Origin: Lachnospiraceae bacterium
GTDB lineage: Bacteria; Bacillota; Clostridia; Lachnospirales; Lachnospiraceae
NCBI GenBank assembly: GCA_017938145.1
Contig: JAGBCB010000070.1
Coordinates: 1 to 49,960 of the forward strand
Reading direction: 5' to 3'
DNA length: 49,960 nucleotides
A model generated the notes under the pieces. It had not been told where the DNA came from. It was given only the letters and a program-made list of their open reading frames with translations, and made no database searches. Shown here one piece after another: positions 8,085 through 49,960 of the stretch. The stretch's first letter is position 1, and each line of letters begins with the position of its first letter. The position numbers and the translations under genes are program-made.

Positions 8085-8840
8085 ATGAAAAAATTATTCA
8101 ATTCGTTTCAATTAAAGTGTATTACCATTGCCATGATGATTGGCGGTATTTATTTGCAGCAGATTCTGTATAAGCTGAATGAAGAAGTACTGGCAGCAGG
8201 AGGCACCATGCCAAAGATGCAGTCCCTGCTTTACCATATGGGATATGTGGTTTATCTGGCTGCGTTTCCGGTGGCAGCGTTTCTTTTGGTAGAGGCAGCA
8301 AAAAAGACTTCCGACCGGAAAGCATTGTTGAAACGTCTGCTGGTGATGGGACTTCTGGTGGAAATTCCGATGGATATGGCGACTTTTGGACTGGCAGAGT
8401 GGAAAAACTGGGGACTGAACCAGAATTATTTCTTTACGTTGTCGATTGGTCTTGGCGTGATAATGGCAGTGGAAGCACTGGCAAAAAAGTATGCCGCAGG
8501 TAGTATGGGAAATAATCTGCTGACGCTTCTGGTGTATCTGCTGGCAGCACTGATAGCAGTGCTGGGGCGGACAGAACAGGGCAGTGTCGGAGTACTGACG
8601 GTGATTTGTCTTTTTCTTTTTTATGGGAATAAAATGTTTTCTCTGGTTTCCGTGGCGGCACTTTATATTTTATTTATGGGAAGTGCCAACGGACTGGAAT
8701 ATCTTCCGGTACTGGGCATTCTGCTGGTGTGGATGTATAATGGAGAGCAGGGAAAAGCAGATAAAATGACGAGACTGGTGTTTTATGCAGCATTTCCGGT
8801 GGCGTATTGTGTGCTTGGAGTGATAGCGAGGTTTTTGTAG
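8085..8840 (+). CDS. TraX-like polytopic membrane protein (acyltransferase superfamily)
   Basis: 251 residues with about seven to eight hydrophobic segments. The start at ATG 8085 is supported by GGGAGG at 8074-8079. The pattern of a short basic N terminus, a first helix (CITIAMMIGGIYLQQ), then FPVAAFLLVEA followed by a basic loop with a run of charged residues and LLVMGLLVEIPMD, resembles the TraX family. In F plasmids TraX N-acetylates pilin; chromosomal Clostridia versions are of unknown function and are probably membrane-bound acyltransferases. The gene lies alone between a terminator and the toxin-antitoxin promoter. Confidence 0.65.
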   Translation: MKKLFNSFQLKCITIAMMIGGIYLQQILYKLNEEVLAAGGTMPKMQSLLYHMGYVVYLAAFPVAAFLLVEAAKKTSDRKALLKRLLVMGLLVEIPMDMATFGLAEWKNWGLNQNYFFTLSIGLGVIMAVEALAKKYAAGSMGNNLLTLLVYLLAALIAVLGRTEQGSVGVLTVICLFLFYGNKMFSLVSVAALYILFMGSANGLEYLPVLGILLVWMYNGEQGKADKMTRLVFYAAFPVAYCVLGVIARFL

Positions 8841-8861
8841 GCGGAGTTTTTTAATAAAGAG

Positions 8862-8890
8862 TTGATTTTTAGTTAAAAATAGCCTATACT
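8862..8890 (+). promoter_or_regulatory. Promoter of the type III antitoxin RNA
   Basis: TTGATT (8862-8867), a 17-nt spacer and TATACT (8885-8890) form a good sigma-A promoter. The predicted transcript starts near 8897, just upstream of the repeat array. Confidence 0.8.
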
Positions 8891-8896
8891 ATAATA

Positions 8897-9070
8897 GAAG
8901 GCAGAACAGTCTGTCTGTCGCGAATGACGGCAAGAATATCATTCAACAGTTAGTTGTTTGTGTTCTCCGCGAATGACGGGAACTCAATGTAGAATATCAT
9001 TCAATAGTTAGTTGTGTATGGTCTCCGTGGATAACGGGACTGAAAATTAGAATATTATCCAATAGTATGT
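8897..9070 (+). ncRNA. Type III antitoxin RNA: three tandem repeats (ToxI-like)
   Basis: Three imperfect tandem units start at 8919, 8968 and 9026. Each opens with a CGCGAATGACGG-like core (CGTGGATAACGG in the third). Each then has a conserved arm starting AGAATATCATTCAA, full length in units 1 and 2 and shortened in unit 3. The arm period is 58 nt. The first unit is 49 nt because it lacks 9 nt between core and arm. Each core can fold as a small stem: TGTCG with CGGCA in unit 1, TCCG with CGGG in unit 2, CCGT with ACGG in unit 3. These changes partly preserve pairing. A second small stem, CAAC with GTTG, is present in units 1-2. In known type III systems such repeats are cut by the toxin into single units that bind and inhibit it. 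Promoter, repeats, terminator and toxin gene are in the canonical order. Confidence 0.82.
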
Positions 9071-9101
9071 GAATAGCTCCTGCAAAGGGGCTATTCTTTT
9101 T
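9071..9101 (+). terminator. Attenuating terminator between antitoxin repeats and toxin gene
   Basis: GAATAGCTCC (9071-9080) pairs with GGGGCTATTC (9087-9096), with one G-T pair and a 6-nt loop, followed by five T. In type III systems this partly read-through terminator keeps antitoxin RNA in excess over toxin mRNA. The toxin's ribosome site AGAGGAG begins immediately after it. Confidence 0.9.
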
Positions 9102-9113
9102 AGAGGAGATAAA

Positions 9114-9599
9114 ATGGAATTAGTAAAAGTAACACCAGAGTTTTATGAACTTTGTGAAAAATACGGTGCAAATAAGAACCGACAATTATTAGTTAGTGAA
9201 GCAGGTAGACCATGCGTATTAGTTGTAAGTTTGGTGTATTGTGGGAAGAAGCGTAAATTTGTTGTGCCAATGAAGTCTAATATCAAATCTTCTGAAGATA
9301 AAAAGAATTATTTTGCATTGCCACCGAATAGCAGGACTCAGAGAGGCTGCCGCCATGGGGTATTCTATATCAAACTGTTTCCTATAAGTGAGAGATACAT
9401 AAATCCATATTATTATAGCAATAATACTTATCTTTGTAAAATAAAAAAGAAAATAGATGAAAATGAAAAAATAATAGTGAATGCCTGTCAAAATTATCTG
9501 GAAAGATATGCGAATGGAAAAGGAATGAACTATACTCCTGACATAGACAAAATTATAGAAATATTAGATAATCAAAATGCAGACACGGAGGAAATATGA
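9114..9599 (+). CDS. Type III toxin, ToxN/AbiQ superfamily (TenpN/CptN-like) endoribonuclease
   Basis: 161 residues, ATG 9114 with AGAGGAG at 9102-9108; a longer GTG frame from 9069 would read through the terminator and is rejected. Motifs in order: LVKVTPEFYELCEKYG at the N terminus, RPCVLVVSLVYCGKKRKFVVP (two beta strands), the MKSNI segment that aligns with the ToxN-family active-site loop, then LPPNSRT and RHGVFYIKLFPIS. The family consists of sequence-specific RNases held inactive by their own repeat RNA; several abort phage infection. Assignment rests on these motifs plus the repeat array and attenuator directly upstream. Codons are AT-richer than in neighbouring genes, which suggests acquisition. 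The stop overlaps the next start (ATGA). Subfamily is uncertain. Confidence 0.82.
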   Translation: MELVKVTPEFYELCEKYGANKNRQLLVSEAGRPCVLVVSLVYCGKKRKFVVPMKSNIKSSEDKKNYFALPPNSRTQRGCRHGVFYIKLFPISERYINPYYYSNNTYLCKIKKKIDENEKIIVNACQNYLERYANGKGMNYTPDIDKIIEILDNQNADTEEI

Positions 9600-10087
9600 T
9601 TTCGTTAAAACTCTTAGAAATGAATCGTTTTATGGGAAAGCTCCTGAAAGGAGAAAATTTTGATGGTTTTCTGTTAAAGGAAGGATTTTTGCGCACAGGA
9701 ATGGAGTATCGTTTTCAGGGCAGGGTGTTCCCAGAATATTTTGATACGGAGGAACAGGAAAAACACAAGGAGGAATATACTTACTGGGGAGAGGTAAAGC
9801 CCTTTGTGTTTGAACTGGTGAAGGGAAAGAGGACACCGCTTGCGTTTTCTTTTACGCTGCTGTTAGCGAAAAATCAAACAACGGAGTTGCTGGTAAGACG
9901 TTCGGTGAATGTGGGAGAGGATTCCCCTTCTCTGTTTTTACAGGTGCGTTTTGAACATGGAGAAGGTCATATTGTTACCGGAACAGCGAGAAATATTTTT
10001 ACGCTGGATAAGTCGCTGGAAGAGGCATGGGATACGGAAGTGAAGCATATATTTAAAGCGATGGAACTGGCTGTGGAAGAAGAATAG
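9596..10087 (+). CDS. DUF5721 family protein
   Basis: 163 residues, no signal or membrane segment. The start ATG at 9596 overlaps the toxin stop (ATGA) and has ACGGAGG upstream. The pattern fits DUF5721, a Lachnospiraceae family of unknown function: an N-terminal helix (MNRFMGKLLKGENFDGFLL), then FPEYFDTEE, and WGEVKPFVFELVKGKRTPL. Its base composition matches the chromosome better than the toxin gene does. The toxin cassette may therefore have landed directly in front of it and now supplies its transcription. Confidence 0.75.
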   Translation: MISLKLLEMNRFMGKLLKGENFDGFLLKEGFLRTGMEYRFQGRVFPEYFDTEEQEKHKEEYTYWGEVKPFVFELVKGKRTPLAFSFTLLLAKNQTTELLVRRSVNVGEDSPSLFLQVRFEHGEGHIVTGTARNIFTLDKSLEEAWDTEVKHIFKAMELAVEEE

Positions 10088-12431: not shown

Positions 12432-14453
12432 ATGAGTACAATGAAAGGAAATCTTTCCATCAATTCCGAAAACATATTCCCGATTATTAAGAAATGGTTA
12501 TATTCTGACCATGACATATTTTTCCGTGAGTTAATTTCCAACGGATGTGACGCTATTACCAAGTTAAAGAAATTAGAGATGATTGGTGAGGCAGAGGTGC
12601 CGGAGGATAATGAATATAAGATTCAGGTGATTGTAAATTCTGAGGAAAAGACACTGACGTTTATTGATAACGGTATCGGTATGACTTCGGACGAAGTAAA
12701 CGAGTACATTAACCAGATTGCGTTTTCTGGTGCAAAGGACTTCTTAGAGAAGTACAAGGACAAGGCAAATGAAGACCAGATTATCGGTCACTTTGGTCTT
12801 GGCTTTTATTCCGCATTCATGGTAGCGGACAAGGTAACGATTGACACACTTTCCTATAAGAAGGACGCAGCTCCGGTTCACTGGGAATCCGAAGGCGGCA
12901 TGGAGTATGAAATGGGTGAGGGCGACCGTGAGGTTCGTGGTACTACCATTAAGCTGTTCTTAAATGAAGACAGCTATGAGTTCTCCAATGAATACCGTGC
13001 CAAGGAAGTTATTGAAAAGTACTGTTCCTTTATGCCGATTCCGATTTACTTCTTCAATGCTGCGAGCCAGGAAGAAGAGGAAGAGGAGGATGTAGTGGAA
13101 GCTGCTGATACAAATACAGCAGATGCAGAGGAAACAGCGGAAGGTGAAGAAAACGAGACTGCAAAGAAGGGTCCGGAACCGGTTAACACTCCAAATCCTT
13201 TGTGGAATAAGCATCCAAATGAATGTACCGAGGAAGAATACAAGAAGTTTTACAGAGATGTATTTATGGATTACAAGGAGCCATTGTTCTGGATTCACCT
13301 GAACATGGACTATCCATTCAATTTAAAGGGTATTTTATATTTCCCTAAGTTAAATACCGAGTATGACAGCATTGAAGGAAAGATTAAGCTGTACAGCAAC
13401 CAGGTATTTATTGCGGATAACATTAAGGAAGTAATTCCGGAATTCTTAATGCTCTTAAAGGGTGTGATTGACTGTCCGGACCTGCCTTTGAATGTTTCCA
13501 GAAGTGCTCTGCAGAATGACGGTTTTGTAAAGAAGATTTCTGATTACATTACCAAGAAAGTGGCAGACAAGCTGTCTGGTATGTACAAGGTAAGCAGAGA
13601 CGAATACGAGAAGTTCTGGGATGATATCTGCCCATTCATCAAGTTCGGCTGCTTAAAGGACGAAAAGTTCCGTGAAAAGATGAAGGATTTCATTATTTTC
13701 AAGAACTTAGAGGGCAAGTATCTGACCCTGCCGGAATACATCAAGGCAGCAAAGGGTGAAACTACAGAAGCTACCGGTGAAAACGGCGAAAAGATTGAGG
13801 CTGAGGTTGTGGATGAAACAAAGAGTGCTTCTGATACCGCAGAGTCCGGCGAGCCGAAGAAGGATACCGTTTACTATGTAACGGATGAGAAGCAGCAGAG
13901 CCAGTATATCAATATGTTTAAGGAAAACGGCATTGATGCGCTGATTATGACGCACAACATTGACCAGCCGTTCATCAGCCAGTTAGAGTATGAGAACAAG
14001 GATGTGAAGTTCCAGAGAATTGATGCAGACTTAACAGAAAGCTTCACCGAAAGCAGCGAGGATATCGCAGCACTGGGTGAGGAACTGTCTGAATTATTCA
14101 AGAAGGCACTTGGCAAGGAAAAGCTGGAAGTTAAGGCAGAGAAGATTAAGAGTGACAAGATTTCTGCCATGATTACCCTGTCCGAAGAAAGCCGCAGAAT
14201 GCAGGATATGATGAAGATGTACCGCATGAGCGGCATGAAGGATGATATGTTTGCAGGCGGTGAAAAGCTGGTGCTGAATGTAAATCACCCACTGGTGAAG
14301 TATCTGGCAGAGAACAAGGAGAGCGAGCATGCCAATATGCTTTGCGAGCAGCTGTATGATCTGGCAATGCTGGCACACAGACCGTTGGAGCCGGAAGCAA
14401 TGACAAAGTTTGTGGAGCGTTCCAATGAAATTATGATGCTCCTTACGAAATAA
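12432..14453 (+). CDS. htpG: Chaperone HtpG (Hsp90) with acidic linker insertions
   Basis: Cytosolic ATP-dependent Hsp90 chaperone, 673 residues (bacterial HtpG is usually about 620-630). GHKL ATPase motifs are seen in order: ELISNGCDAITKL, DNGIGMT, GHFGLGFYSAFMVADKV. The middle domain is recognisable by NVSRSALQ. Two acidic low-complexity inserts account for the extra length. One lies between the N and middle domains (about residues 211-248, a run of Glu then Thr/Ala/Glu), where eukaryotic Hsp90 has its charged linker. The other is in the middle domain (about residues 442-475). Control by CIRCE/HrcA is read directly from the upstream operator. Identity is secure; the inserts' purpose is unknown. 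Confidence 0.97.
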   Translation: MSTMKGNLSINSENIFPIIKKWLYSDHDIFFRELISNGCDAITKLKKLEMIGEAEVPEDNEYKIQVIVNSEEKTLTFIDNGIGMTSDEVNEYINQIAFSGAKDFLEKYKDKANEDQIIGHFGLGFYSAFMVADKVTIDTLSYKKDAAPVHWESEGGMEYEMGEGDREVRGTTIKLFLNEDSYEFSNEYRAKEVIEKYCSFMPIPIYFFNAASQEEEEEEDVVEAADTNTADAEETAEGEENETAKKGPEPVNTPNPLWNKHPNECTEEEYKKFYRDVFMDYKEPLFWIHLNMDYPFNLKGILYFPKLNTEYDSIEGKIKLYSNQVFIADNIKEVIPEFLMLLKGVIDCPDLPLNVSRSALQNDGFVKKISDYITKKVADKLSGMYKVSRDEYEKFWDDICPFIKFGCLKDEKFREKMKDFIIFKNLEGKYLTLPEYIKAAKGETTEATGENGEKIEAEVVDETKSASDTAESGEPKKDTVYYVTDEKQQSQYINMFKENGIDALIMTHNIDQPFISQLEYENKDVKFQRIDADLTESFTESSEDIAALGEELSELFKKALGKEKLEVKAEKIKSDKISAMITLSEESRRMQDMMKMYRMSGMKDDMFAGGEKLVLNVNHPLVKYLAENKESEHANMLCEQLYDLAMLAHRPLEPEAMTKFVERSNEIMMLLTK

Positions 14454-43939: not shown

Positions 43940-44012
43940 GCGCGAGTGGCTCAGTTGGTGGAGCGCGACCTTGCCAAGGTCGAGGCCGCGGGTTCGAGTC
44001 CCGTCTCGCGCT
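43940..44012 (+). tRNA. tRNA-Gly (anticodon GCC), integration target of the island
   Basis: Acceptor GCGCGAG pairs with CTCGCGC, D arm GCTC with GAGC, anticodon stem CGACC with GGTCG around loop TTGCCAA (anticodon GCC), T loop TTCGAGT. Its last 20 bases are repeated at 49479-49498, marking it as the attachment gene. The gene is intact. Confidence 0.95.
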
Positions 44013-44014
44013 CT
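43993..44014 (+). other. Left attachment site (attL) in tRNA-Gly 3' end
   Basis: 22 bp (TTCGAGTCCCGTCTCGCGCT plus CT) are identical to 49479-49500. The site covers the T loop to acceptor end of tRNA-Gly, the usual core for tRNA-targeting tyrosine recombinases. Confidence 0.88.
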
Positions 44015-44024
44015 GAAAAAAATG

Positions 44025-44056
44025 AGAGTTGGTTGGAAAACCAACTCTTATTTTTT
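44025..44056 (+). terminator. tRNA-Gly terminator, duplicated at the far end of the island
   Basis: AGAGTTGGTT (44025-44034) pairs with AACCAACTCT (44039-44048), followed by TATTTTTT. An identical stem occurs at 49511-49534. Confidence 0.88.
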
Positions 44057-44211
44057 GTGAGCACGAGTGCTCACGAACCCATGCAAACATGCATGGGTTC
44101 TGAGTCGTCTACGTTCCACTTCGGTCCGTCCAGAACTGACATCCACTGGATGTCATGGACCGCTCCGCTCCGGTCCGCGCAAAGTTTGTGTGTCTACAAT
44201 TTTGTACCCAG
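44057..44211. repeat. Hairpin-array intergenic repeat, copy A
   Basis: Consecutive inverted repeats are packed into about 120 nt: GTGAGCAC/GTGCTCAC (44057-44074), GAACCCATGC/GCATGGGTTC (44075-44100), GACATCC/GGATGTC (44138-44154), GGACCG/CGGTCC (44157-44176). It is more GC-rich than the surroundings, and a related copy lies at 49538-49738. The remaining gap 44212-44247 leads to the integrase 3' end. Confidence 0.88.
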
Positions 44212-44220
44212 TTGTACCCA
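44202..44220. other. Paired TTGTACCCA direct repeats (possible integrase arm sites)
   Basis: TTGTACCCA occurs at 44202-44210 and 44212-44220, and again at 49401-49409 and 49729-49737. Short direct repeats flanking the core sites of tyrosine integrases often bind the integrase N-terminal domain. Confidence 0.45.
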
Positions 44221-44247
44221 CTGACGACAAGATTGACGACAGAGTAG

Positions 44248-45468
44248 TTACAACGCTTTACTAATCAATTCGTAGGTATCTTTTTCGGGCAATGGATTGT
44301 ATATGTAGCCGAGAGTGGTGGAAAGTTCCGTGTGTCCTAGTAATTCTCTGATGGCATCCAGAGGAACACCGTTAGATGCAAGCATACTTGCGTAGGTTTT
44401 TCGCATCTTATGGGTGCTTTTCGTTTGTATTCCTTGCCGTTCTGCGTATTTCTCCAAAACGTAAGCAATTTGTCTGCTTGTAATTCTCTCTCCATCACGT
44501 ACAAAAATATACTCGCTTTGCCGAGGAATTTGTTTCAGCAGTTCGATTGCCTTTGGTGGTACTGCTACAAAACGGTCAAGATGCGTTTTGGTATGGTCTG
44601 CCACATAACGGGTATTGCTTTCCTGCTCCCTTACTTCCTCACGGACAATATGCAGTGTGGTATTGTCCTCCCAATCGCTCCATTTTAACGCTACAAGCTC
44701 TCCAACACGCAAACCCAGATAGAAGTTCATTCGAACTGCTAAAAAGGCTAAATCGCCCGTTTCTGTAAATTTTGCATCAAGATAGTGGTTTAACTCTGCC
44801 AATTCATCCGTATTGAAAGTTTGTGTCTTTCCGGTTTTTCTTACTACCTGCCGATACTTCACAAGGATTTTAACCTCATTCATGGGATTAACGGCCAAAT
44901 ACTTTTTACGTACGGCATATTCAAACATACCAAGCAGAATAGTCTTTGCGTTTGTCCATTCCTTTCGGGCAAGGTTAAAATCTCTCACAATGCGGTTACA
45001 CTCCATTTCAAGCAGTAAAGAGTCAATTTGTTTTAACTTCATGGAATGAAGTTTGGAAGACTCAAAATACTTTCTGTAATGCTGCTTGTGTCGCGTAATG
45101 GTATTGGGACTTCCGGCAAGCTCGCTTTTGTAAGCAATCCATTCTTCGAAAAGATTATAAAAGGTTAGTTTTTCAAGGTGCGAGTTGGAAAAGTATAATG
45201 GAATAAGCTTCTCCAACAATTTTTCTTCTGTTTGTGCTTTGATGATTTTGTAGTTTCCATTTGCATCCTTAAATCGTGTCTGCCACCGTCCTTTCTCAGA
45301 AGATGGTGCAGTAAGGCTATAAGGGTGCATTTTCTTTACAAGGTCTATTTTTCTACTCATAGGTATTTCATCAAGCGCACTACCCACATTCAAAATATCA
45401 TACTTGGAATTGAGTTGCAATAATTCCAACAGATAATCTTGAAAAATGTCGTTATTCAATTTTTTCAC
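44248..45468 (-). CDS. int: Tyrosine recombinase / integrase
   Basis: 406 residues on the minus strand, ending about 235 bases from tRNA-Gly. The N-terminal part (about 60-95: SLTAPSSEKGRWQTRF, KDANGNYKII) is an arm-binding AP2-like domain, followed by a SAM-like core-binding domain (about 100-200). The catalytic domain shows Arg in GLRVGELVALKW, Lys in HTKTHLDRF, HxxR in STHKMRKTYAS, His in LGHTELSTTLGY, and the Tyr nucleophile just after (GYIYNP). The start is an apparent GTG at 45468 with no clear ribosome site. An internal Met at residue 37 is an alternative. It mediates integration and excision at tRNA-Gly. Confidence 0.95.
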   Translation of the reverse strand: MKKLNNDIFQDYLLELLQLNSKYDILNVGSALDEIPMSRKIDLVKKMHPYSLTAPSSEKGRWQTRFKDANGNYKIIKAQTEEKLLEKLIPLYFSNSHLEKLTFYNLFEEWIAYKSELAGSPNTITRHKQHYRKYFESSKLHSMKLKQIDSLLLEMECNRIVRDFNLARKEWTNAKTILLGMFEYAVRKKYLAVNPMNEVKILVKYRQVVRKTGKTQTFNTDELAELNHYLDAKFTETGDLAFLAVRMNFYLGLRVGELVALKWSDWEDNTTLHIVREEVREQESNTRYVADHTKTHLDRFVAVPPKAIELLKQIPRQSEYIFVRDGERITSRQIAYVLEKYAERQGIQTKSTHKMRKTYASMLASNGVPLDAIRELLGHTELSTTLGYIYNPLPEKDTYELISKAL

Positions 45469-46148
45469 CGCCAGTCTGTAAACGATTAGACTACGTTTGT
45501 CAAAAGACCAGTTGAAAATTTAATATTTTGTCGGTTTGAAAATATTATGCCTTTCCGCCGTATCCAGTGATTTTCTTCTCAAATATGCTTTGAAAATCCT
45601 AATAATTCGTTCGAAAAAATGAGTAACTATGAAAAATGAGGTTTCAAATAGTTATTTTTAACCATGAATTTCAGGGCGCAAAATAGTGATTTTCGGACTG
45701 TTCTACATTTCGGAACGGGTTATACATCAACCGAAAAAATGACAAAAATAATCTTTTTACAGCGCATAGATGGCGTGACGGTTGGCGGTAATATAAACTC
45801 ATGGAATTGTGGAGAGTATGGTGGATTGGTCGGGATGTTCGTTTTGGAAGTTGACGATTGTATGTCTGTAAAAAAAGTTATAATAAAAACAAGGTTTTTG
45901 AACAGAACATTTTTATCTCTATAAGCGATACTTGTTTATAGAGAATTTTTATTGGGTGGATTTTGTGATATAGGAACAATTTATTGACACATACACGGAC
46001 AATGAGTAGAATGTAGTTAGGTTGAATTTTGTAATGTATAGGAATTAATAAGTTAGAAATATGTTTTACTAGAAATAATTTTAAAGGTAAAAGAGATAGA
46101 CGAGCGGAAAACAAGACACGCATCTTATGAAGAGAGGTGGATTGCTAG
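45469..46148. other. AT-rich non-coding gap between integrase and cargo operon
   Basis: About 680 bases without a convincing gene. On the minus strand TTGACA (45498-45503) with a weak -10 (45475-45480) may drive the integrase. On the plus strand the cargo promoter sits at 45984-46012. A plus-strand frame at 45664-45924 lacks a ribosome site and any family pattern. The gap may hold excision and regulatory sites; nothing else is recognisable. Confidence 0.6.
45984..46012 (+). promoter_or_regulatory. Promoter of the island cargo operon
   Basis: TTGACA (45984-45989), 17-nt spacer, TAGAAT (46007-46012), about 135 bases before the first cargo start codon. Confidence 0.75.
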
Positions 46149-46772
46149 ATGAATTTACCAGATAATTTTAAAGTGTTATCTTTGGAGTTTTGTCGACAGA
46201 CAGATTTTCATAAAGAAGCAAGGATGTTGAATGATGAATTAGATAAAGCAACCAAAGAGAATGATATCCAATCATACATAAAAAGAAATGAAAAATGGTT
46301 TATTCCATTGTCGATACTTAAAAACTATGATTTCGGACATCATTTTGCGTGTGTTGTACCTGAATATTCACTTGGAAGTGAATATAGGGTTGATTATTTA
46401 CTTATTGGAAAAAATTCTATAGGATATCATTTTGTTTTAGTTGAATTTGAAGATGTTAATGTGGATTATAAAAATAAAACATCTAATTCTGAAACAGAAA
46501 AAGTGCGCAAGGGCTTAACACAGATAAGAGATTGGAAACGCTGGCTTGATAAAAATAAGAATTATTTTGAAAATAGTGAAGGCATAGCAGAATTTGGTAG
46601 GAATATACCAAGTTGGGGATTTTTCTATTGCTTGGTTGTCGGTAGGCGGGAGCAAATGAGTGATATGGCTAATCAATTACGAGGAGAAATGCAGAGTGAT
46701 TTACCAAGTTTAAAAATTATTTCTTATGATAGATTGGTTGACAATGTTTCATTGATGCACAATGGCATATAG
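46149..46772 (+). CDS. Shedu-like protein (DUF4263/SduA-type PD-(D/E)XK domain)
   Basis: 207 residues, ATG 46149 with GAGAGGTGG upstream. The pattern of a helical N terminus (QSYIKRNEKWFIPL), then ACVVPEYSLGSEYRVDYLL with Asp82, HFVLVEFED with Glu99 and Glu101, and the helix GLTQIRDWKRWLDKN matches the DUF4263 domain of Shedu (SduA) defence nucleases. In Shedu the second acidic motif is usually ExK; here the Lys position is Glu. That may alter metal binding or indicate a variant seen in shorter DUF4263 proteins. Typical SduA proteins are about 380 residues, so this is close to the bare domain. It is first in the cargo operon. Confidence 0.72.
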   Translation: MNLPDNFKVLSLEFCRQTDFHKEARMLNDELDKATKENDIQSYIKRNEKWFIPLSILKNYDFGHHFACVVPEYSLGSEYRVDYLLIGKNSIGYHFVLVEFEDVNVDYKNKTSNSETEKVRKGLTQIRDWKRWLDKNKNYFENSEGIAEFGRNIPSWGFFYCLVVGRREQMSDMANQLRGEMQSDLPSLKIISYDRLVDNVSLMHNGI

Positions 46773-46880
46773 TTTGATGTGTGATAAATGCAGGTTAATA
46801 AACATGTGTATATTACTTTTTAATATCTTATAGCAAGAATAAAACCTGCAATTATTGGAATTAGAAGGAGTGATTACGCA

Positions 46881-47969
46881 ATGGATAATAAAGCGGAGAA
46901 GGAATATTGCCATGGAAGAGATGAAGAATTTATTACATATTATTGTGCAATAAATGAACCCATTGCGGAAATTGTTATTCTGGATTATTTTACGAAGTTT
47001 GCGAAAGTAGAAAAATTGAGTAATATATTTGAAGATGATTTTTCAGTAAATTATAAAATCGAAATTCCGGTGGCCTTAATTGATATTCAATGTCTTTTGT
47101 GCTTTATGTTTATGAATAAGCATATTACTCCGCCAGCAACATTTGGTGTCGTATTAGCAGAAATATTTAGTATATATAATTCTATAGGAGAGAAAACAAA
47201 TATAGAAAAAGTATTTGAAATTAGTTTTGAAAACTATAAAAAACGTAATCCGAATGCAACTGATAAAGAATTAGAAAAATTTAGAAGAAAGGGAGAAAGT
47301 AAAATAAATTCATATAGGCAACATGATGATGATGTTCATAATGTTGTAGAAATTTTGAAATCGAGAATTGATGCTGATAAACACAAAACTATGGAAAAAT
47401 ATTGTAAGAACTATCCATTGAAGGTAATAGAAGAAGATAGATACTATGTGTTACATGTTCCAGAAAAATACATAAAGAAATATATAGGGGATAAATGTCC
47501 AAAGTTCCTTTATTACTATATGTTTGATAATCAGCAAAAATATGAAAAGGAATACGGGAAAGTGCTATTGAATTTGATGGAGCAAGGCGTAATTAAATCC
47601 CGTTGGAAAAATGAATTTTCATTATATATGCTTATTAAATCATATTTTCCATCTGCAATTTATCAATATCACGCTGAGTGGTTAAAAAAGCAGTCGTTAG
47701 ATATTTTCATTCCAGAGTATAAAATAGGAATAGAATATCAGGGAATTCAACATTATGAAGATGTTGCTGTTTTTAGAGGAACAGATGGCTTGTTGGAAAC
47801 ACAGAGACGTGATAAGATAAAAAAGGAGAAGTGTAAACTAAATGGTGTCACGTTAATTGAATGGCTATATACCGATAAAGTTGAAGAACAAAAACTAATA
47901 GATGTTTTAATAGAACATAATATTCCAATTCCGCAAAAGCAAGATATTGCTAATTTTTATAAAGAATAA
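46881..47969 (+). CDS. Cargo nuclease-like protein, C-terminal PD-(D/E)XK/Vsr-type endonuclease domain
   Basis: 362 residues, ATG 46881 with AGAAGGAGTG upstream. The N-terminal about 230 residues are of unknown family: a Cys-containing start (EYCHGRDEEFITYYC), a hydrophobic stretch (about 68-85) and charged helices (EKFRRKGESKINSYRQHDDD). The C-terminal about 110 residues have a compact endonuclease pattern: LDIFIPEYKIGIEYQGIQHY (Asp near 273, Glu near 285, Gln near 287), then an FRGTDG segment and QRRDKIKKEKCKLNGVTLIEW, as in Vsr/DUF559-type or restriction-like nucleases. It is probably a DNA nickase or nuclease effector. The gap of 108 bases from the DUF4263 gene contains no promoter I would trust. 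Confidence 0.65.
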   Translation: MDNKAEKEYCHGRDEEFITYYCAINEPIAEIVILDYFTKFAKVEKLSNIFEDDFSVNYKIEIPVALIDIQCLLCFMFMNKHITPPATFGVVLAEIFSIYNSIGEKTNIEKVFEISFENYKKRNPNATDKELEKFRRKGESKINSYRQHDDDVHNVVEILKSRIDADKHKTMEKYCKNYPLKVIEEDRYYVLHVPEKYIKKYIGDKCPKFLYYYMFDNQQKYEKEYGKVLLNLMEQGVIKSRWKNEFSLYMLIKSYFPSAIYQYHAEWLKKQSLDIFIPEYKIGIEYQGIQHYEDVAVFRGTDGLLETQRRDKIKKEKCKLNGVTLIEWLYTDKVEEQKLIDVLIEHNIPIPQKQDIANFYKE

Positions 47970-48047
47970 TATAAATAATTCAGCAAGGTATATTGTTTTT
48001 GGAATTTATGTAGTTGAAACTATTCTAATTGTAATGGGTTGGTATTT

Positions 48048-48842
48048 ATGAAATTATTATTTTGGAATACGCATAAAAATAAGAATATCAATGAATATGT
48101 TAGTAATTTGGTAGCAGAAAATGAAATAGATATCCTTATTTTAGCGGAGTATAGCGGTAATATTACTGAATTAGATTCTATTTTAGCGAAAAGTCAAAAG
48201 CGTCTTAAGAGGTGCAATACCATTGGCTCAGATAGGATAAAAATATGGAGTAATTATTTAGATGTGCAACCGGGTATTCAAGAAAAGCATTATTCGTTAC
48301 AAATTATCAATAATGAGTACATTGTATGCGGAGTCCATTTGTTTTCGAATTTAAATGGAGAGCGTAATGATGAAAGAGTCTTGCTTGCAAATAGAATAAT
48401 GGATGAAATAAGCAAATTGAAGCAAAAAATAAAGACGGATAAAGTTATTATACTGGGGGATATAAATGAATCTCCATATGAAAAAACAAGTTTAAGTGCA
48501 CTAGGATTTCATGGTATGCCGTCTTTGAATGTTAGTGATGATAAGACTAGAGTGGTTTCAGGGGTAGAATATGAAAAAATGTATAATCCTATGTGGAATT
48601 TATACGGTGACTTTGAGTATCCCCCAGGAACATATTATCGTTCGGAGTCAAACCTTTGTACAGCCGCATGGTACATGATAGATCAAATTATAATAAGTCA
48701 ATCAATGATTGGCTTATTAAATAGAAATGACTTGAAGATAATTGTAGAATGTATGGGAAATTCTTTGTATACTGAAAATAAACATCCAAATAAAAGGATT
48801 AGTGACCATTTTCCGATTATGTGTGGTTTTAATATTATGTAA
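48048..48842 (+). CDS. Endonuclease/exonuclease/phosphatase (EEP) fold protein
   Basis: 264 residues from ATG 48048. The ribosome site is weak; a TTG start at 48039 is possible. EEP motifs are seen in order: LLFWNTHKN (Asn7), ILAEYSG (Glu34), CGVHLFSN, ILGDINESPYE (Asp and Asn near 138-140), YMIDQIIIS, and RISDHFPI with the terminal Asp-His pair near 253. All catalytic positions of the DNase I-like fold appear present. Members cleave nucleic acids or phosphoesters of lipids and nucleotides. In this operon with two other nuclease-like proteins, a nucleic acid or nucleotide substrate is the natural guess, but it is not shown by the sequence. Confidence 0.82.
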   Translation: MKLLFWNTHKNKNINEYVSNLVAENEIDILILAEYSGNITELDSILAKSQKRLKRCNTIGSDRIKIWSNYLDVQPGIQEKHYSLQIINNEYIVCGVHLFSNLNGERNDERVLLANRIMDEISKLKQKIKTDKVIILGDINESPYEKTSLSALGFHGMPSLNVSDDKTRVVSGVEYEKMYNPMWNLYGDFEYPPGTYYRSESNLCTAAWYMIDQIIISQSMIGLLNRNDLKIIVECMGNSLYTENKHPNKRISDHFPIMCGFNIM

Positions 48843-48855
48843 AGGGAGGTATAGT

Positions 48856-49386
48856 ATGAATATAAAAGAATTTGATTTTGAGTTGAAAGATACAAAGACT
48901 CCAGAATGTGTGATAAAGGAATATGTGGGAAAAATATCAGAACGGACAAAGGGGATGGTAGTGTGTGATATTCTTTCATATAATGGAGAGACAGAGAGTT
49001 ATAGAAAGAGAAATGGTTGGTTCGCCACAGCGGAAATGATTGAAGAATTTGGTAAAGATATTACGATAGACATACAAAATAGTTTAGGTGAATTAGGTGA
49101 TATAGATAATAAATATGAAGTATTTCTTACTGTGAAGGGATTAGAACATTATAAGTATAGAATTATGTTTATACGTTATGGGGCAATATCATATCCTGTG
49201 ACTGTAGTCTTAAATGAAGATATTGCAGAAGCATATAGTGGTAAGTCTCAATATGAGTATATAGTAGGTTCTATGGCTGAATTAGAAGAAATGCTTGAGA
49301 AAATTTTTGATACAGAGTATTGCATGAGTTTGATACAAAATCTGATTTATGAGGCGTTGCGACAAGAGAGAAAAAATAGTCAGTAA
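48856..49386 (+). CDS. Unknown small cytosolic protein, last gene of the island
   Basis: 176 residues from ATG 48856, supported by AAGGGAGG directly upstream; a longer frame from 48802 overlaps the EEP gene and lacks a ribosome site. Soluble, acidic, mixed alpha/beta. Recognisable segments are a conserved-looking RKRNGWFATAEMIEEFGKDI, a beta-rich middle (YEVFLTVKGLEHYKYRIMFI) and an amphipathic C-terminal helix. I recognise no family. Only 13 bases separate it from the EEP gene, so the two are translationally linked; an immunity, regulatory or specificity role is possible. Confidence 0.75.
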   Translation: MNIKEFDFELKDTKTPECVIKEYVGKISERTKGMVVCDILSYNGETESYRKRNGWFATAEMIEEFGKDITIDIQNSLGELGDIDNKYEVFLTVKGLEHYKYRIMFIRYGAISYPVTVVLNEDIAEAYSGKSQYEYIVGSMAELEEMLEKIFDTEYCMSLIQNLIYEALRQERKNSQ

Positions 49387-49400
49387 TTTAAGAAGTATTT

Positions 49401-49409
49401 TTGTACCCA
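49401..49409. other. TTGTACCCA site near the right end of the island
   Basis: The same 9-mer is found at 44202, 44212 and 49729. Just after it, TTGTAGACACAC (49412-49423) is the inverse complement of GTGTGTCTACAA, seen near 44188 and 49714. It is therefore an inverted counterpart of the sequence beside the other sites. Confidence 0.45.
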
Positions 49410-49478
49410 CCTTGTAGACACACGTTGGGTAGTGCGCTAAACCCCTTTCTTTATGCGTATTTGCGAAAGACGGTGTAC

Positions 49479-49500
49479 TTCGAGTCCCGTCTCGCGCTCT
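49479..49500 (+). other. Right attachment site (attR)
   Basis: A perfect 22-bp copy of the tRNA-Gly 3' end, without the rest of a tRNA upstream (49420-49478 does not fold as one). It marks the island's right boundary. Confidence 0.88.
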
Positions 49501-49738
49501 TAAAAAAATGAGAGTTGGTTGGAAAACCAACTCTTATTTTTTTAAGAGCGCGAGTGCTCACGAACCCATGCAACATGCATGGGTTCTGAGTCGTCTACGT
49601 TCCACTTCGGTCCGTCCAGAACTGACATCCACTGGATGTCATGGACCGCTCCGTTCCGGTCCGCGCAGGACCGAGGTCCACTGGACCTCGTGCGCCCCGT
49701 CTCACGCAAAGTTTGTGTGTCTACAATTTTGTACCCAG
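49501..49738. repeat. tRNA terminator plus hairpin-array repeat, copy B
   Basis: It repeats 44015-44211, with a few substitutions and an extra segment of about 38 nt (near 49670-49707). That segment adds one more hairpin, CGAGGTCC with GGACCTCG. Frames across this repeat give similar short peptides in both copies but have no start signals. Confidence 0.88.
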
Positions 49739-49781: not shown

Positions 49782-49831
49782 AGTATAGTAAAGATACTTT
49801 TGGATTTTTTATTGGGCAAAGGAGACCAGCT

Positions 49832-49849
49832 ATGAATAGTCAAGAATAA
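49832..49849 (+). CDS. Five-codon mini-ORF (possible leader peptide)
   Basis: ATG 49832 to TAA 49849 encodes MNSQE, with an AAAGGAG ribosome site correctly spaced at 49818-49824. Such short leaders control downstream genes by ribosome stalling. No downstream gene is visible in the window, so the role is a guess. Confidence 0.35.
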   Translation: MNSQE

Positions 49850-49902
49850 ATTTCAAAAACATTTGATTTTTCTTTGACTACCGAAAATGGCCGACTTTAA
49901 CT

Positions 49903-49924
49903 AGACCTTCAGTGAAGGCCTTTT
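49903..49924 (+). terminator. Small terminator-like hairpin after the mini-ORF
   Basis: CCTTC (49906-49910) pairs with GAAGG (49914-49918), extended by two pairs outside a mismatch, followed by TTTT. It would fit an attenuator behind the mini-ORF. Confidence 0.4.
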
Positions 49925-49960
49925 GAAAAAAATCTATGTAAAGCCTTTGCTAAGCTAAAT

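Follow-up and report, generated by a model that had tools for sequence, protein, structure and literature searches.

The endonuclease/exonuclease/phosphatase (EEP) superfamily includes ExoIII/APE1, DNase I, sphingomyelinase and CdtB, and Shedu proteins, a family of defence nucleases, usually have the active site D...E-x-K. E. coli SduA is described as carrying an N-terminal clamp (review PMC12904381). TgvAB is described as two genes inside a type I restriction-modification (RM) operon that act together against phages with modified genomes, and as GmrSD-related (PMC11411939). Here we describe an integrative element of ~5.5 kb lodged in a tRNA-Gly gene of a gut bacterium of the Lachnospiraceae (assembly GCA_017938145.1, contig JAGBCB010000070.1; the whole 49,960-nt stretch, contig 60 in a 72-contig genome, is referred to as the window). 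The element encodes an integrase and four co-directional cargo genes, all on the plus strand: a short Shedu-family protein, a PD-(D/E)XK-type protein (protein 3), an EEP-fold protein (EEP) and an unclassified protein (PAR). The last two are a real conserved two-gene unit found far beyond this element, and most of what follows concerns them.

EEP and PAR are strictly paired. Of 295 genomes sampled across the order, 11 have EEP; the 9 with PAR are all among these, and 10/10 PAR places adjoin an EEP place. The two EEP-only genomes contain a truncated EEP (G072) and a strongly diverged open reading frame (ORF) in the partner's place (G216). Reciprocal profile searches of 391 genomes of the class (PAR at E<=0.001, EEP at E<=1e-15) recovered EEP in three and PAR in the same three, adjacent each time. 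These were the window's own genome, G093 with a rearranged EEP, and G490; only the last is new, so this is a small test. The G093 copy (locus L036) has the 5′ part of EEP inverted (8093-8380, minus strand) before the rest (8503-8856, plus strand), with an open PAR frame behind; no strong inverted repeats were found at this locus, which is either a broken copy or an invertible segment.

A scan of species genomes supplied 68 loci and a viral collection supplied four with EEP and one with PAR. After removal of four non-members (L103-L106), 69 family loci were retained, broken copies included. PAR lies directly downstream of EEP on the same strand in 67/69. The two exceptions are L051, where the contig ends inside EEP, and L096, where the next gene has only a 7.5-bit resemblance to PAR; the latter encodes a diverged 291-aa protein (8866-9741) with a PAR-like YPVKI stretch. 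In 54 pairs the two genes are separated by a median of 1.5 nt and by 29 nt at most (ORFs were begun at the first start codon, so overlaps are possibly overstated). The two proteins also diverge in step, their pairwise distances being strongly correlated (Mantel r = 0.90, n = 50, p = 0.001; best of 999 permutations 0.20). The pair is present in seven phyla, namely Bacillota, Bacteroidota, Pseudomonadota (Magnetococcales), Acidobacteriota, Armatimonadota, Auribacterota and Planctomycetota, with a broken EEP in the Planctomycetota copy, and five viral-collection contigs carry family members.

The window EEP matches PF19580 (5.3e-7, 29.4 bits against a cut-off of 27). Positions N7, E34, H97, D138, N140, D212 and S252-D253-H254 are invariant across 54 EEP sequences. 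They fit the catalytic set of the fold, which we take to be Asn, Glu, His/Tyr, D-x-N, Asp and D-H, so the enzyme should be active. EEP is most likely an active, metal-dependent phosphodiesterase of the DNase I/ExoIII type. The family keeps all catalytic positions of the superfamily, and xth models and ExoIII in the PDB match it weakly; it differs from the superfamily in the invariant Y179-N180, the nearly invariant P181 and the constant downstream partner. The NCBIfam EEP model PRK05421 matches 10/54 members and an exodeoxyribonuclease III model 7/54; the EEP score against PRK05421 is 21 bits, against a cut-off of 144 bits. In the PDB search a chance row ranks ahead of the first EEP-fold rows, EEPD1 and ExoIII, whose E values start at 0.016. 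A role as a nuclease thus appears likelier than one as a lipid or sugar phosphatase.

PAR is the more variable protein, with a mean column identity of 20% (61 sequences) compared with 37% for EEP (54 sequences), and has a conserved core around Y99 and Y113-P114 in the 61 sequences. At E<=1 the window PAR has no hit in Pfam, PADLOC or NCBIfam; its one PHROG match, at 0.024, is to a family without assigned function. No Pfam family recurs in PAR, none matching more than 1/61 members. Its AF2 model (pLDDT 85.8) has no clear fold match among solved or viral structures; weak, non-significant matches were to gp671 (TM 0.43/0.54) and gp674, both from one phage, Bacillus phage G. At L083 (8515-9657) PAR bears a long C-terminal extension and reaches 380 aa. 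A variable partner with a single conserved core suits a sensor or an inhibitor. Neither EEP nor PAR has a match at E<=1 in PADLOC-DB 2.0.0 (2023), and no description of the pair was found in PADLOC 2023 or in a literature search.

Some copies of the pair are found with RM genes. In L056, L059, L063 and L069 the order is hsdS-EEP-PAR-hsdR of a type I RM operon (Pfam names cover both RM genes in L056 and L063 and hsdR only in L069), and in L035 the pair follows hsdS and hsdR. An MmeI-like gene is succeeded by EEP after 28-46 nt in L053 and L055, and on viral contigs L107 and L108 the pair follows a D12 methylase. Among the 122 nearest neighbours PADLOC identified four type I specificity and four type I nuclease proteins (best 25 of 245 families); none was present among 98 distant genes of the same loci (best 25 of 26 families). 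The position inside a type I RM operon recalls TgvAB, but that system is described as GmrSD-related (PMC11411939) whereas EEP and PAR have no PADLOC match at E<=1. Other settings were noted by eye. On two viral contigs, L109 with apparent phage lysis genes nearby and L110 with an apparent tail gene, it looks like an accessory pair in a prophage. In L080, L092, L095 and L076 its neighbours are apparent housekeeping genes (heme genes in L080, a murA-like gene upstream in L092 and L095, glyA in L076), and no obvious mobility gene adjoins it.

From this anatomy and context we propose that the cargo of the island consists of independent modules, namely a minimal Shedu, a PD-(D/E)XK endonuclease-like protein and the two-gene EEP+PAR unit, and that the last is a PAR-gated nuclease pair serving in defence against phages or other mobile genetic elements, sometimes as an add-on inside RM operons. 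We give this reading as a whole a probability of about one half. The element itself, the strict pairing, the divergence in step, the conserved catalytic positions and the RM setting of a minority of copies are observed; a nucleic-acid substrate, contact between EEP and PAR, gating, defence and the phage target are inferred from them. EEP would be a non-specific or structure-directed nuclease needing control. PAR, which probably shares a transcript with EEP and is made right after it, would bind EEP and either keep it harmless or direct when or where it cuts, releasing or aiming it once foreign DNA is sensed. The pair may cover invaders missed by a neighbouring RM system, by analogy with TgvAB (PMC11411939). 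More tentatively, EEP+PAR might be an undescribed multi-phylum anti-phage system, in which EEP is held and triggered by a dedicated sensor, of a fold so far absent from the solved structures, and which has repeatedly been plugged into RM operons as a second line.

Several observations weigh against a defence function. The four loci with the pair between hsdS and hsdR group together in the EEP tree and so are not independent. An RM-type match within 2 kb was found in only 10/67 loci, two of which (L042, L058) have only a weak D12 match, and the RM queries had been chosen from near neighbours. RM association is thus a minority context for the pair, and the window's own EEP+PAR is not beside an RM gene. 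Moreover, the distant control genes also hit other PADLOC defence models, with 1-2 members per family. EEP is interrupted or shortened away from a contig end in at least 8/69 loci (L060, L062, L065, L068, L079, L100, L101, L102), so the system is often lost, and in L061 PAR is interrupted by an in-frame stop with EEP intact, possibly an error in a metagenome-assembled genome. EEP phosphatases carry the same catalytic residues, and the nucleic-acid substrate of EEP is a presumed one.

The main rival is a toxin-antitoxin (TA) or addiction function, in which EEP would be a toxic nuclease and PAR its antidote, mainly stabilising mobile DNA. It shares most of the anatomy on which a defence function is proposed: two adjacent genes that overlap or abut, the smaller of them varying more. 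Toxin-first gene order occurs in some TA types and EEP-first order would fit these, as would the broken EEP beside an intact PAR in L065, L101 and L102. However, L061 is the opposite case, which a strict toxin-antidote model would not predict, and a search of 50,697 phage and 72,556 plasmid records, the natural home of addiction modules, gave no match to the window EEP. We consider a TA function possible but rather unlikely; TA and defence overlap, so that it is not exclusive. A lower probability still attaches to a housekeeping or repair accessory, for example for the repair of damaged ends, carried as cargo. The weak EEP matches to ExoIII models, and to ExoIII and EEPD1 in the PDB, would agree with such a role, but it is made improbable by the patchy presence (3/391 class genomes), by the location on the window's integrative element and five viral-collection contigs, and by the RM neighbourhoods of some copies.

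The features of the element are listed in Table 1. Its boundaries are marked by an exact 22-bp att core, TTCGAGTCCCGTCTCGCGCTCT, whose limit is supported by congener G295, where exactly these 22 bases are common to four copies at locus L160 and the flanks differ. A preliminary description had placed the island correctly and listed its genes correctly. It had also reported intact 22-bp att repeats; the core is indeed intact, but the repeat does not end there. Positions 43993-44181 and 49479-49667 are 96% identical over 189 bp, and another 34 bp match exactly, so that the duplication takes in the tRNA terminator region. The first 231 bp of the right long repeat are 95% identical to the region at another, island-free tRNA-Gly in G295. 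By eye, the right att arm is nearly identical to the bases preceding the att copies at 13318 and 14427 of L160, and a similar stretch occurs at 255 of L165.

Table 1. Features of the tRNA-Gly element, with positions in the window.
Feature	Position	Strand	Basis or remark
tRNA-Gly (GCC), integration target	43940..44013	+	ARAGORN
att core, left copy, 3′ end of tRNA	43993..44014	+	limit from four copies at congener locus L160
Long direct repeat, left copy (att core, tRNA terminator and further bases)	43993..44211	+	
Tyrosine integrase, 406 aa	44248..45468	-	PF00589, 9.3e-23
Promoter-like site upstream of cargo, TTGACA-17-TAGAAT	45984..46012	+	11/12 consensus matches
Short Shedu-family protein, 207 aa	46149..46772	+	PF14082, PADLOC SduA, alignment of five relatives
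Protein 3, PD-(D/E)XK-type, 362 aa	46881..47969	+	PHROG endonuclease matches, alignments
EEP-fold nuclease/phosphodiesterase, 264 aa, first gene of pair	48048..48842	+	PF19580
PAR, 176 aa, second gene of pair, unclassified	48856..49386	+	position after EEP
Right att arm	49450..49478	+	nearly identical to bases before two att copies in congener G295
att core, right copy	49479..49500	+	exact 22-bp core
Long direct repeat, right copy	49479..49738	+	

The promoter-like site in Table 1 is the best in the scan, and as a consensus match it is not proof of function; 21 such sites were observed against 24.6 by chance, so their number is not above chance. A consensus scan found no plus-strand terminator-like site from this site (45984-46012) to 49517. 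The earlier proposal of a single operon for the four cargo genes is compatible with the sequence. PHROG matches of the five main proteins (integrase and four cargo) are to integrases, endonucleases or families of unknown function, and no replication, regulatory or packaging-interference genes of phage satellites (resembling phage-inducible chromosomal islands) are among them; short ORFs were not searched. With an integrase, an att core at both ends and alternative cargo at the same site in relatives, the element has the characters of a tRNA-targeting integrative element. Further along, the last 143 bases of the window (49818-49960) are repeated at 99% close to the beginning of contig 54, from the same genome, and contigs 33 and 48 have shorter matches close to theirs; the contig end is probably a multi-copy repeat.

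Three other genomes of the genus were available for comparison. In two of them (G295 and G296) a related integrase (E 1.1e-169 and 4e-162 in a six-locus search) lies at a tRNA-Gly in the same place and direction as in the window, the sites being recognised as orthologous by the adjoining homologue of a 1558-aa protein gene. The genes after the integrase differ from the window cargo in both. No match to the element was found in the third congener. L160 of G295 contains the att core four times in 12.3 kb (at 2131, 10963, 13318 and 14427). There, one integrase-bearing element is followed by two more att-bounded segments, in neither of which an integrase was found, and which resemble cassettes riding on one integrase. 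The tRNA-Gly site is thus a place where elements swap cargo, which argues against all the cargo of one element being one machine.

The other two cargo proteins resemble known nucleases. The short Shedu-family protein contains SduA_C (PF14082, DUF4263; 6.3e-15) at 56.1 bits, where the cut-off is 27, and ten PADLOC SduA models match it, among them PDLC00386 (1.1e-42). It is a short member of the family. SduA_C takes up residues 35-197 of 207; only 34 residues precede it and an in-frame stop comes immediately ahead of the start codon, which leaves hardly any space for an N-terminal clamp. The DNA-end clamp domain of type I (EcSduA-like) Shedu was accordingly not found in the 207-aa protein. D82 and E99 are present but the Lys position is E101, giving E-x-E rather than the canonical motif; 4/5 Shedu relatives (L132-L135) also have E-x-E and only L136 has E-x-K. 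BamHI is an example of a nuclease with Glu in place of Lys, and by this analogy the window protein could still be active.

No Pfam family matches protein 3 above cut-off, and no PADLOC family does so at E<=1. Among PHROGs it matches a family without assigned function at 3.5e-20, and endonucleases of the HNH, homing and intron-encoded kinds at 3.7e-18 to 3.1e-5. The nuclease-like part occupies approximately residues 218-348, and the motif D-I-F-I-P...G-I-E-Y-Q-G...Q-H in the C-terminal part is kept, with variation, in four relatives. One relative in the window's genome (L138, contig 15, 4799-7141) is a 780-aa protein with NUMOD1 and adjoins a gene whose start resembles an AAA-type ATPase. Protein 3 resembles homing-endonuclease-like PD-(D/E)XK proteins in its homing/HNH matches and its NUMOD1-bearing relative, but stands alone at 362 aa, the L138 alignment stopping near its C-terminus, before NUMOD1. 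The Shedu-like, EEP-fold and PD-(D/E)XK assignments made beforehand all hold, and so does the look of a compact defence island, an integrative island with nuclease-like cargo including a Shedu-family protein; the N-terminal region of protein 3, described as unknown, is partly shared with longer proteins in L137 and L138.

The preliminary description also had the four genes acting together and named their co-conservation in other genomes beforehand as the test of this. Within up to 8 kb each side of EEP in 67 EEP-family loci, no relative of the Shedu protein or of protein 3 was found (ORFs >=110 aa against the window Shedu, two other Shedu proteins and protein 3; E<=1e-6). Among 246 genomes, Shedu relatives occur in 5 others and protein-3 relatives in 13 others, the latter mostly as the nuclease part only. 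The 5 Shedu genomes do not overlap with the 10 other EEP genomes of the 295, the two samples not being identical. The sole other genome with both EEP+PAR and a protein-3 match (G244; 72 residues of the nuclease part) has them on different contigs. In the opposite direction, the surroundings of all five Shedu relatives and of four protein-3 relatives gave no EEP or PAR match at E<=1e-3. One of the four protein-3 stretches comes from the window's genome and the others from three of the 13 genomes; contig ends cut two of the latter. Within these searches the four genes occur together in the window element only, the outcome that the preliminary description had named as refuting joint action. A single new defence system made up of the four genes, with several nucleases expressed from one operon and acting jointly, is hence very unlikely: a common strand and mobile element, the upstream promoter-like site and the lack of an internal plus-strand terminator-like site speak for it, but they are outweighed by the failure to find Shedu or protein-3 relatives near EEP loci, or EEP and PAR in the Shedu and protein-3 stretches, and by a Shedu relative (L133) that lies, by eye, in an apparent type I RM operon.

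The conserved unit is therefore the EEP+PAR module and not the four-gene set. If the module is a defence system, the EEP fold, a classic fold of repair enzymes and toxins, would gain a dedicated two-gene role in defence, and the pair would be a small system in which to test the gating of a nuclease by a variable partner.

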